Positions 30,081-35,998 of a stretch of DNA of 64,000 nt are shown here, piece after piece. Each line of letters starts with the position of its first letter. The stretch's first letter is position 1. Source of the stretch: Nitrososphaeraceae archaeon (GTDB taxonomy: Archaea > Thermoproteota > Nitrososphaeria > Nitrososphaerales > Nitrososphaeraceae); the NCBI GenBank assembly GCA_031316115.1, contig JALDRC010000002.1, positions 248,001 to 312,000 of the forward strand. The letters run 5' to 3'. The notes beneath the pieces were generated by a model. The model made no database searches. It was not told where the DNA came from and was given only the letters and a program-made list of their open reading frames with translations. A program made the position numbers and the translations under genes.

Positions 30081-30977
30081 TTGCATAACGAATTTTCTAA
30101 TTTATATAAATCCTCCAGTATAGGAATCAATAAATTTCACCCTTTTGTGAAATGGGCAGGAGGGAAAACTCGATTAACATCAGTTATTGAACGACATGTT
30201 CCTAAAAATTTTTCAAATTACTTTGAACCGTTCCTCGGGGGCGGCGCTCTTTTTTTTCATCTTAAAAACACGAGGTACGAAATGAAGGATTTTACTTCAT
30301 ACTTGTCTGATAATAATCCCGAACTAATTAATGCTTATAATATTATCAAGAACAAGCCGCAGAAACTGATAGCTTTGTTAAGAGAATTTGAAAAAAATTA
30401 CTATAATAATCCAAGGGAGTTTTATTATGAACTAAGGAACAATAAACTTTCCGATAAAATCTTCCTAGCGGCAAGATTCATAACATTAAATAAAACATGT
30501 TACAATGGTTTGTATAGAGTAAATAAGAATGGATTGTTTAATGTGCCTTTGGGAAATTATATAAAACCGAAGATCTGCGATGAAGAGAACCTATTAAACA
30601 TTAATGGAATCCTCAAAAATACAAAGACCATAATTCGTTTAGGGGATTTTGAAAATATTTTGGTAAAGAATACAAAATCGAATGACTTCATTTATTTGGA
30701 TCCTCCGTATGATCCCATAGACAGGACATCAAACTTTACTAGTTATACCAATACCGGTTTTAATATAGAACAGCAAAAAAGACTTTCGGATTTATTTCAT
30801 ATCTTGGATTGTAAAGGATGTAAATTATTGCTGAGTAACTCAGATACAGAAACAATCAGAGAGTTGTATAAAGATTTTAGTAACAATATCTTAAAAATCG
30901 AATCTATTAGATCTATTAACAGCAAACCAGAAAAGCGATCAGGGCATGTCGAATTACTTATTAAGAATTATAAATAG
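30081..30977 (+). CDS. dam: DNA adenine-N6 methyltransferase (Dam/D12 class)
   Basis: Transfers methyl from SAM to adenine in DNA. 298 residues. D12-class motifs in order: FVKWAGGKTRL (residues about 22-32), FEPFLGGGALFFHL, AARFITLNKTCYNGLYRVNKNGLFNVPLG and catalytic DPPYDP. Start is TTG at 30081. No restriction endonuclease ORF adjoins, so it looks like an orphan or solitary methylase. GATC is the usual target of this class but is not shown here. Next to gene-poor DNA and 1.3 kb from an IS remnant, so transfer from a mobile element is plausible. Confidence 0.92.
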   Translation: MHNEFSNLYKSSSIGINKFHPFVKWAGGKTRLTSVIERHVPKNFSNYFEPFLGGGALFFHLKNTRYEMKDFTSYLSDNNPELINAYNIIKNKPQKLIALLREFEKNYYNNPREFYYELRNNKLSDKIFLAARFITLNKTCYNGLYRVNKNGLFNVPLGNYIKPKICDEENLLNINGILKNTKTIIRLGDFENILVKNTKSNDFIYLDPPYDPIDRTSNFTSYTNTGFNIEQQKRLSDLFHILDCKGCKLLLSNSDTETIRELYKDFSNNILKIESIRSINSKPEKRSGHVELLIKNYK

Positions 30978-32299: not shown

Positions 32300-33018
32300 G
32301 GCTCTTAATTTAAGATAATACTCACCTCTTTTTCTAACTCAAAATGATTATTGTTTGCTATAGTATCATTGTATATAGAAATAAAGAATTGTATCTAGTT
32401 ATTAACATGAAATAAATTACATTCCTCTTGTCTACATGGATAGTAATCATCAAAACTTTCTATTCTGTCTTTCAAAAACTGGTTTACTCTTTCCATCAAA
32501 CTTTTCTCTATTGAAGAATGCAAATAGTGTTTTAATCCAATTACGTCACAGGCTTCCTTATACCATGTACCACCATCTGTATAGATGGTATGTTTTCCAT
32601 ATTTTGATACAAGAGAACTGATAAAATTCTCTGCTACAAACATGTTTCTATCTTATGATATATAGATTCCAAGCACAGATCTCTGGACTGGTTCAATACA
32701 TATCCATAACCAAAAATTCTGGTTACCAATCTGAACAATGGTTTCATCTATAATAAAAGCAGTTACTCTTTTTCTTTTGTAGATCTGACAAGAACCAAAT
32801 CTTTGTATCAAATTCCAAACAGAAACATGACTTTGCTTTTCATCTCTAAATATTACTAATGCTTTACATGTATTACTTAAACTCAAACCAAGAAAGTACA
32901 AATACAAAGAATACATCACTATACATGTGGATGTTCTGTTTCTTTCAAATTTGATTTGATTCATATGATAGATAGAATGTTCTTATCTATAGCTGTTTCT
33001 GATTAAATTAACAGAGCC
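32300..33018 (-). mobile_element. IS6-like insertion sequence, copy 1 (decayed, ends intact)
   Basis: About 719 bp bounded by imperfect inverted repeats: left GGCTCTTAATTTAA (from 32300) and, on the other strand, right GGCTCTGTTAATTTAA (ending 33018). The enclosed minus-strand transposase frame is full length but carries two internal stop codons. No exact 8-bp target duplication can be seen at the flanks, which fits age or rearrangement. Two more degraded relatives lie at 55.5 and 57.7 kb in the same orientation. Confidence 0.85.
32305..32964 (-). pseudogene. IS6-like DDE transposase, two in-frame stops
   Basis: A 219-codon frame runs without frameshift through two stop codons: one TAA at 32653-32655 (IYIS, stop, DRNMF; copy 3 has a glutamine codon there) and one TAG at 32395-32397 (HVNN, stop, IQFF, formerly Trp). 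DDE triad: Asp73 (FIIDET), Asp130 (YTDGG) and Glu158 (LMERVNQF), with 27 residues between the last two. The FLGLSLSNT segment resembles haloarchaeal IS6-group transposases as I remember them. Inactive as it stands unless stops are read through. Confidence 0.85.
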
Positions 33019-33523: not shown

Positions 33524-33579
33524 CTGGTCAGATACCCTAGTACTTTCATCACTTATCAGAAAGATGCTCATCATTCCAG
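33524..33579 (-). ncRNA. C/D box small guide RNA (56 nt)
   Basis: On the minus strand: stem CTGG (33576-33579), one base, C box ATGATGA (33568-33574), 8 nt, D' box CTGA (33556-33559), 3 nt, C' box GTGATGA (33546-33552), a 14-nt guide (33532-33545), D box CTGA (33528-33531), stem CCAG (33524-33527). All four boxes are perfect and the end stem pairs, the canonical archaeal 56-nt layout. The guide next to D is AAGTACTAGGGTAT. The first guide is only 8 nt and may not function. Stand-alone in a 783-bp gap; a TATA-like element lies near 33631-33640. Confidence 0.88.
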
Positions 33580-33747
33580 CGCTTAATGATTTTCTCTTCA
33601 AATATGATCTTTAGGCTAGCTCTATATTATCTTTATAAATTGTTCATCTTATCGGTTAAAAATCTGGTTAATTGATTGTAAAAAATTATTAACAACTTAT
33701 TCCATCTATTGTTACTGATTATCTTTTATAAGAAAAATTAAACCTGT
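33580..33747 (+). other. Intergenic spacer ahead of the ATPase cluster
   Basis: AT-rich. It holds the presumed sRNA promoter on the minus strand (ATTTATAAAG near 33631-33640) and presumably the plus-strand promoter for the 215-aa gene. No ORF was seen. Confidence 0.4.
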
Positions 33748-34395
33748 ATGCAAATGTCTTTAGAAGAAAAAATCTTTCAACAAATTTTTTCTTCCGGTGT
33801 AGAGGGAGTAAAAAAAACTATTCTAAAGAAAGAATATCCTGATATCGATATTGATAAAAATCTAGATTATTGGGTAAATAATGGTGAGATAATAATCTCT
33901 AAAAAAGCTAATACCTTTTACTGCTGGCACAAAGATAATTATTTCCAATATCTAATTAATTCAGATCCAAAATACAAATATGTTTATGAGATGTTAAAGG
34001 ATTTAAGAGACTCCTTCCAAAGTTTTTCTACAACTGTGGATAAACAGGTCGAAAAATTAGATAGTAGACTAATATTATTAATGGATTCATTATTAACTAA
34101 CAATACTCAAAAACCTGAAGCATCATGGCCGTCCCCTGTATCTTCACTAGATATAGATACTTTCAAACACGATTTTGATTTATCTATATCTAAACATTCT
34201 GGATCTAGTGGTTGGGTAGAATTACCTACAATAAAGAATGATTTATGCCTTAAATATCAGATAACAGATCATCAATTCTATAATTATGTCGAACAATTAG
34301 TAGATCATTTCAAAGAAGATTATGAGTTATCTTCTGGAGGTGCCGAAGGGATAATCATTAGAGGTCTATTACATGGATTCGTCAGGTGTTTATAA
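33748..34395 (+). CDS. Protein with winged-helix-like ends, first gene of ATPase cluster
   Basis: 215 residues, family not recognised. N-terminal 60 residues (LEEKIFQQIFSSGVEGVKKT, then LDYWVNNGEIIISKKANTFYCW) look like a winged helix with a wing hairpin. The middle (EMLKDLRDSFQSFSTTVDKQVEKLDSRLILLMDSLL) is a predicted coiled coil. The C terminus (WVELPTIKNDLCLKYQITDHQFYNYVEQLVD) looks like a second winged helix. So it could be a dimeric DNA-binding adaptor. It overlaps the ATPase gene by 23 bp, so the two are almost certainly made together. Confidence 0.75.
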   Translation: MQMSLEEKIFQQIFSSGVEGVKKTILKKEYPDIDIDKNLDYWVNNGEIIISKKANTFYCWHKDNYFQYLINSDPKYKYVYEMLKDLRDSFQSFSTTVDKQVEKLDSRLILLMDSLLTNNTQKPEASWPSPVSSLDIDTFKHDFDLSISKHSGSSGWVELPTIKNDLCLKYQITDHQFYNYVEQLVDHFKEDYELSSGGAEGIIIRGLLHGFVRCL

Positions 34396-35998
34396 TTTGT
34401 ATCCGTACAATCTTACCTGCAATCCATTTCCGAGCACTCCTACTCCATCTTTAAATGATGTGAGAATTTTAGGTGGGAAGAAACATATCGACGCCAAAAA
34501 CTCTATTAACTCTTGTGTCAACGAATTATTTCAAAATGTGACACACAATAGTAACAAACAAGAGTTTAGAATAATCACAATAATACAGGATGTTGGTTCA
34601 GGGAAAACTCATATAACTCTTCATCTCAAAATATCTGATCTAACAGAAAAAGCCATTTTTTCATATATTGATTTATCAAAAGTTTATCCTAAAACTATCG
34701 AGAGTATTTATCAATCTATGATTAATGGATTCGAAAAAGAATATATCAATACATTGAGAAAACAAATATTATATTATATTTTGGATAAAAGTAAAGTAGA
34801 TAAGAAACTTGCCAAGAAAATTTTTAAACTAGGGTTATTTGAATCAATATCAGGAAAAGGTTTAGACGCAAAGGCACTTGAGAGTGTAGAAAATAAAATG
34901 GAAATTAGTATTAATGATATAGATTCCTTATTTACTGATAATTTTTCTGCAAACGAAATTACTATAATAAAAAAAATTATACAAAATAGATTTGAAGATA
35001 TTAATTCAATAACACTGTTAGAAATGATAAATACACTTGCTTTATTATCACGACTGAATCTTCTGTTATTTAAAAAACTATCTATATTCCAATTTGATGA
35101 ATTAGATCACGAAAATAATACATTAGCTCTCATAAAGTCAATAATTAATACTCATTTACCTAATACCATATTAATGATGAATATGACTCCTTCTTCTTAC
35201 CATAAAATATCACTTACTGATAGTTCTATATATGATAGACTTGAAAAAGCAAATTTTAAGATAGATCTTGTAGGTTCAAATTCGTTTGATGAAATTACAG
35301 ACATTGTAATGGCTTATATTTTTTCTGATAAAATATCCACAACTTCGCAAATAGTTGAAAACGAACTAATCACTATTTTAAAAGTGCTATACCAAGATTT
35401 TGAATTCAGGAATATTCGTTCAATACTTAATATAATGCACGCTGCTTTCGAAATTGGACTTCAAAAAGGATTATCTTCCATCAATGAAGATTGTATTCAT
35501 GAATCATTAAAGATTGTATATCCGGGAATGAAAATAAAAGGAAGCATAATGAATATATCAATTTCGGAATACATCAAAATAAAAAGTTACTTTAATTTTG
35601 GTAACAACATAGAAGATGAAATTGTTTCTTCTATAAGATCTTTGCTAGATTCATTAGATCAAAATAAATCCCCGATTAATAATAGAAAATTTTCTAAAGA
35701 CATCAATATATCTTATCCAAAACTATCAACAACACCAAAATCTGCAAATACTAATTTATCTACCGCTGTATTATTGGAAGAGCCAGTATCAACAGATTAT
35801 AGTTATGTATATAAAAAAAATGATCAAAATAAATTTGATTCATTACCTCCCAAAAGTTCTAAAACACCAAAAATCTTTCTCGACAATTCTAAGATAATTG
35901 ACTTGCTTTATTATTCTTATAAATTAAAGAAAAATATTAACACAACCGAAGATGATGAAAAAGCACTATTATTAGCAAAGGCTTTAAACCTAAAATAA
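34373..35998 (+). CDS. P-loop (AAA/STAND-like) ATPase of unknown function
   Basis: 541 residues. The opening YPYNLTCNPFPSTPTPSLND resembles the NPFxxTPxP leader of ExeA/ORC-like AAA ATPases. Walker A is QDVGSGKT (72-79), Walker B LSIFQFDELD (about 236-245), and a sensor-like polar residue follows in TILMMNMTPSSYHKI. A helical lid and a probable winged-helix region follow (to about 400), then a serine-rich linker (about 430-500) and a short helical C-terminal tail. Looks intact. It is not Orc1/Cdc6, MCM or a defence ATPase I can name. Overlaps the upstream gene. Confidence 0.8.
   Translation: MDSSGVYNLYPYNLTCNPFPSTPTPSLNDVRILGGKKHIDAKNSINSCVNELFQNVTHNSNKQEFRIITIIQDVGSGKTHITLHLKISDLTEKAIFSYIDLSKVYPKTIESIYQSMINGFEKEYINTLRKQILYYILDKSKVDKKLAKKIFKLGLFESISGKGLDAKALESVENKMEISINDIDSLFTDNFSANEITIIKKIIQNRFEDINSITLLEMINTLALLSRLNLLLFKKLSIFQFDELDHENNTLALIKSIINTHLPNTILMMNMTPSSYHKISLTDSSIYDRLEKANFKIDLVGSNSFDEITDIVMAYIFSDKISTTSQIVENELITILKVLYQDFEFRNIRSILNIMHAAFEIGLQKGLSSINEDCIHESLKIVYPGMKIKGSIMNISISEYIKIKSYFNFGNNIEDEIVSSIRSLLDSLDQNKSPINNRKFSKDINISYPKLSTTPKSANTNLSTAVLLEEPVSTDYSYVYKKNDQNKFDSLPPKSSKTPKIFLDNSKIIDLLYYSYKLKKNINTTEDDEKALLLAKALNLK

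Follow-up and report, generated by a model that had tools for sequence, protein, structure and literature searches.

The element at 33524–33579 raises two questions: is this 56-nt stretch on the minus strand a genuine small guide RNA and, if so, which nucleotide would it direct for modification? It lies within the window, by which we mean the whole 64,000-nt stretch of DNA that was analyzed, from an archaeal assembly of 3.16 Mb. The original prediction had described it as a stand-alone C/D box sRNA in an otherwise empty spacer, with a possible target in 16S rRNA.

Architecture and conservation of the element

The four exact boxes and the closing CTGG/CCAG stem that were predicted are all present on the minus strand, where the order from 33579 to 33524 is CTGG-A-ATGATGA-GCATCTTT-CTGA-TAA-GTGATGA-AAGTACTAGGGTAT-CTGA-CCAG. 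The C (RUGAUGA), D′ (CUGA), C′ (UGAUGA), and D (CUGA) boxes occur in the correct order and with the spacing usual for archaeal C/D sRNAs. The terminal stem is likewise as expected for this class, and in relatives it comprises mostly 2–4 pairs when the guide is of the A type and 4–5 when it is of the G type, the two forms being defined below. The features of the locus are as follows.

33524..33579, minus strand: whole C/D box sRNA, 56 nt; the CTGG/CCAG stem pairs 33579–33576 with 33527–33524; kept in relatives
33568..33574, minus strand: C box, ATGATGA
33560..33567, minus strand: D′ guide, GCATCTTT, 8 nt
33556..33559, minus strand: D′ box, CTGA
33546..33552, minus strand: C′ box, GTGATGA
33532..33545, minus strand: D guide, AAGTACTAGGGTAT, 14 nt; positions 2–9 from the D box pair with 23S rRNA
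33536, minus strand: guide base five before the D box
33528..33531, minus strand: D box, CTGA
33599..33606, minus strand: weak TATA-like word CATATTTG, 25–32 nt before the C box; candidate sRNA promoter
33748..34395, plus strand: neighboring gene, 215 aa, divergent from the sRNA; no Pfam match
34373..35998, plus strand: second neighboring gene, 541 aa, conserved; it carries a Walker A-like motif, GSGKTH, and matches no family

A C-D′-C′-D arrangement, whether with exact or relaxed boxes, occurs once in the window, at this element, and none of 150 first-order Markov shuffles of the window yields one. Archaeal C/D models of Rfam match the same stretch and strand at scores below their gathering values, the best being snoPyro_CD (27.6 bits vs 45, E 9e-4); at the Rfam cut-offs the element is not captured. 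On its own, the energy with which the sRNA folds has no diagnostic value (z 0.43).

Of the 37 genomes of its family, the Nitrososphaeraceae, that were searched at the DNA level, 28 contain the element at E < 0.01, a count that includes the window's own genome and leaves out one (G032) in which only the 5′ half matches. Across these copies no variation is seen in the D box or in the core of the D guide (ACTAGGGTA, positions 2–10 counted from the D box), while the D′ guide, the D′-C′ spacer, and guide positions 1 and 11–14 vary, which is the pattern expected if a fixed target belongs to the D guide alone. As judged by tblastn, homologues of the 215-aa/541-aa gene pair adjoin the sRNA divergently at almost every Nitrososphaeraceae locus and at 23 of the 26 loci from Nitrosotalea. 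Since the same divergent position beside the same two genes is found in both groups, the copies look orthologous. The exact boxes, the stem, and this conservation support the identification as a stand-alone C/D box sRNA, and on the evidence of sequence comparison the element is a genuine small guide RNA that ammonia-oxidizing archaea have conserved in evolution.

The description of the spacer as otherwise empty holds in that no open reading frame of at least 50 aa is listed between 32965 and 33747, but the surroundings are not neutral. On one side, at 32395–32964 on the minus strand, are two adjacent IS6-type transposase fragments that lie in different frames. One of them hits NCBIfam transpos_IS6 (3.5e-13) with a score far under the cut-off, and each has relatives at other places in the genome (L045, L052). 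On the other is the divergent gene pair (33748–35998, plus strand), a cassette that is retained beside the sRNA across Nitrososphaeraceae and Nitrosotalea. The window also carries a gene for a D12-class N6-adenine DNA methyltransferase at 30081–30977 on the plus strand (Pfam MethyltransfD12, 3.3e-63). Our promoter and terminator scan used bacterial-type signals and is uninformative for an archaeon; in the homologues, TATA-like words gather about 28–36 nt before the C box, in agreement with the position of CATATTTG.

The D′ guide is 8 nt long, as noted at the outset, and the suspicion that one half of the RNA is vestigial is strengthened by its variability among relatives and its lack of a convincing target. 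No rRNA column is shared by its matches in either family, and a pair of weak matches in the window's own genome, at 23S 920–937, is not kept in relatives. This differs from a double guide, in which both guides have rRNA targets, usually within 100 nt. Because the D′ half retains its boxes but has no conserved target, its role is probably structural only, serving particle assembly. In the orthologous sRNA of Nitrosotalea (L102–L127), the D′ guide is fairly conserved, as TTGGGTAT or TCGGGTTT, without a strong rRNA match.

Predicted pairing of the D guide with rRNA

The 14-nt D guide is, as claimed, the reverse complement of ATACCCTAGTACTT, and it was from this sequence that a 16S target near E. 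coli 790 had been proposed, with some doubt as to whether two central bases agree in thaumarchaea. The doubt was justified, as the organism's own 16S reads ATACCCGGGTAG at these positions. Aligned with the own 16S (ATTAGATACCCGGGTAGTCC), the guide can pair along ATACCC, where a mismatch and a G-U pair follow; the duplex therefore breaks after six contiguous pairs, and the proposal fails.

We scored all aligned 16S and 23S columns against guide positions 2–10, using the rRNA operons of eight Nitrososphaeraceae and nine Nitrosopumilaceae genomes. The best-pairing site is own 23S 2505–2514, UUACCCUAGG, which corresponds to E. coli 2437–2446 in helix 74. In each of the two families, taken separately, it heads the ranking of 16S and 23S positions, with 8 of 9 Watson-Crick pairs in all eight Nitrososphaeraceae genomes and 9 of 9 in all nine Nitrosopumilaceae genomes; the next best joint site averages 7.25 and 6.4, respectively. 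None of 1000 position-shuffled guides attains the observed score of 17, the best reaching 16.

In this duplex, D guide positions 2–9 pair with UACCCUAG (E. coli 2438–2445) on the 3′ strand of helix 74, which leads into the peptidyl-transferase loop. By the D+5 rule, the base predicted to be 2′-O-methylated is own 23S C2509; its E. coli counterpart in the alignment is U2441, which precedes A2451 by ten bases. The base named in the original prediction, the second C of ATACCC, survives as the second C of a UACCC run, though in 23S helix 74 rather than in 16S. The mark would thus most likely fall on large-subunit rRNA near the peptide-bond-forming center and not on small-subunit RNA.

The own-genome duplex comprises eight Watson-Crick pairs flanked by U-U and A-G mismatches, one pair short of the nine given as a working rule for archaeal C/D guides (PMC4644070). 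The orthologues form nine or ten pairs, ten contiguous ones being reached in A-form relatives with A at guide position 1 when the first D-box base is counted. The contiguous rRNA or tRNA match of at least 9 nt that the original prediction had set as its own test is found at helix 74 in the orthologues, and the window's own genome has eight pairs at this site. Nor does energy alone point to this site, as the modeled own-genome duplex is more stable at the sarcin-ricin stem (−15.8 kcal/mol) than at helix 74 (−13.4 kcal/mol). The choice of target rests on comparative evidence. Elsewhere in 23S, positions 921–930 match the D guide well in the own genome (ten pairs, one of them G-U), and this match is not kept in relatives. 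A scan of 30 of the 31 predicted tRNA loci with their flanks gave nothing convincing inside a tRNA, and the six other places in the genome with at most one mismatch to the 12-nt target word all lie outside the rRNA operon.

Covariation of guide and target

In the first 23S sequences compared, the site reads TACCCTAGG in the window's family and TACCCCAGG in most relatives outside it. On the basis of this difference we predicted beforehand that G would replace A at guide position 7 outside the family. A scan of 400 genomes of the order for a C′ box, CTRGGGTAN, and a D box gave matches in 83 genomes and no control matches. The A form of the guide, CTAGGGTA, occurs in 46 genomes, all of them Nitrososphaeraceae, and the G form, CTGGGGTA, in 37, all of them Nitrosopumilaceae (the family that includes Nitrosotalea and Nitrosopumilus); there is no crossover, and many Nitrosopumilaceae genomes have no match to this strict pattern. 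The corresponding 23S base (E. coli position 2443) is U in eight of eight genomes of the window's family, a set that includes one (G012) whose C′ box has diverged, and C in all 12 G-form genomes examined. Almost all G-form guides have C at position 10, which gives nine contiguous pairs.

Modeled energies show that an A-type guide binds a C-type target poorly (−8.8 vs −13.4 kcal/mol), while a G-type guide tolerates a U-type target through a G-U pair. Guide and target covary between two families, as is expected of an archaeal C/D sRNA. Since the A and G forms occupy the same genomic place, the most fitting interpretation is that a single gene underwent a compensatory change. The contrast between the families is close to a single evolutionary event, and the 83 genomes can therefore not be counted as independent events. 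Within the known class of C/D sRNAs, we regard this as an unusually clear case of guide-target co-evolution.

These data allow three other readings of the element to be weighed. Guidance of 16S methylation at the equivalent of E. coli C796 draws on the shared ATACCC, on nine or ten scattered pairs that can be formed, and on a slipped duplex of −15 kcal/mol. In the D+5 register, however, the own 16S offers only the six contiguous pairs described above; in Nitrosopumilaceae, A gives way to G at guide position 7 without any matching change in the 16S (ATACCCGGGTAG in G112); and the joint score falls far short of that of the helix 74 site, so that we regard this reading as scarcely credible. We also consider it very unlikely that the 23S sarcin-ricin stem CCCUAGUAC (own 2718–2726) serves in this genus as an additional or alternative target of the D guide, with methylation of the equivalent of E. 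coli C2651. The site has nine contiguous Watson-Crick pairs, position 5 included, and the best duplex energy in the own genome, yet the three guide bases adjoining the D box are unpaired in it, guide position 11 varies freely, one genome (G010) carries the guide while its 23S reads CCCAUAGUAC, and the site, which relatives do not conserve, scores poorly in the other family.

The third reading concerns function rather than site: instead of guiding methylation, the RNA would mainly help 23S helix 74 to fold, as a chaperone, or would act on its neighbors in cis or by an antisense mechanism. One strand of helix 74 is covered by the guide, the gene keeps a fixed place next to the 215-aa/541-aa gene pair, and chaperone roles have been proposed for archaeal C/D sRNAs (PMC4644070). 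Set against this, the element has its D box and the D+5 G-C pair, the genome encodes the catalytic proteins, the single-base covariation with 23S fits a guide, and the D′ guide offers no match through which a second rRNA strand could be bridged, all of which makes such a role very improbable. The preferred reading is that the element is a functional archaeal C/D sRNA gene whose D guide directs 2′-O-methylation of own 23S C2509 (E. coli 2441) in helix 74, which, judging from the comparative data, we hold to be likely.

The architecture, the conservation, the shared synteny, and the covariation of guide and target between two families are observations, and from them a course of events can be proposed. 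The sRNA would probably be transcribed from its own promoter and bound by L7Ae, Nop5, and fibrillarin; genes for fibrillarin, Nop5, and an L7Ae-family protein are encoded in the same genome. The D guide would pair with helix 74 of the pre-rRNA, and fibrillarin would then methylate the ribose of C2509 according to the D+5 rule. The retention of the guide across two families, its shared genomic position, and the compensatory change argue for lasting selection on one predicted ribose methylation near the peptidyl-transferase center, here in mesophilic ammonia oxidizers.

Relation to known systems and wider distribution

Helix 74 of 23S rRNA is modified in E. coli by RlmKL, which makes m7G2069 and m2G2445. 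The system described here would act on the same helix, next to the peptidyl-transferase center, but differs in that RNA-guided ribose methylation is predicted, as opposed to protein-only methylation of bases at other nucleotides. C/D box sRNAs with domain V targets near this center are well known from the sR families of archaea, as described by Dennis et al. 2015 (PMC4644070) and Breuer et al. 2021 (PMC7994747). The element resembles these families in box consensus, size, terminal stem, and D+5 rule, in its domain V target, and in combining one productive guide with one empty guide. It differs from them in its short, 8-nt D′ guide, in its mesophilic ammonia-oxidizing hosts, which lie outside the seven species surveyed, and in that its guide is retained across two families with a compensatory change, whereas fast turnover of guides has been described. 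The seven-species survey found no methylation site common to all species (PMC7994747). The literature that we searched contained no dedicated study of thaumarchaeal C/D sRNAs. The analysis yields a methylation prediction at single-nucleotide resolution together with an example of guide and target co-evolving.

A slightly tighter pattern, run against species genomes, gave 88 stretches. Among the 80 of these that were listed, 74 are archaeal records and six are bacterial, the latter without upstream boxes and reflecting the chance level. Matches with C/D architecture were also seen in Diapherotrites (L153, L174), in Geothermarchaeota-type archaea (L155, L198), and in a Thermococci archaeon (L165). 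The box architecture is shared with the Pyrococcus C/D box RNAs of Rfam RF00095 (snoPyro_CD), whose cut-off is passed by L153 and L165, in contrast to the window's copy. In the genome of L198 the 23S reads TACCCCAGG and the guide has G, as predicted. In the archaeon SpSt-1190 (L207), the guide core ACCCTAGGGTAT seems to be the D′ guide of a C/D-like RNA, and the only 23S-like site found in that genome, TACCCCGGGG, is mismatched to it, making this a possible exception. That a single sRNA lineage, kept beside one gene pair in Nitrososphaeraceae and Nitrosotalea and with its guide core present in other archaeal phyla as well, tracked the single-base change in helix 74 by a compensatory change of guide is conceivable, though we lean slightly against it. 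If it did, ribose methylation at E. coli 2441 would be widely retained among archaea and not confined to hyperthermophiles.

Finally, in the 23S genes of three Nitrosotalea-type genomes (L130, L135, L136), the alignment to the window's own gene breaks at about own position 2006, where approximately 345–690 extra bases are present. Judging from this break, the extra bases are likely a 23S rRNA intron.
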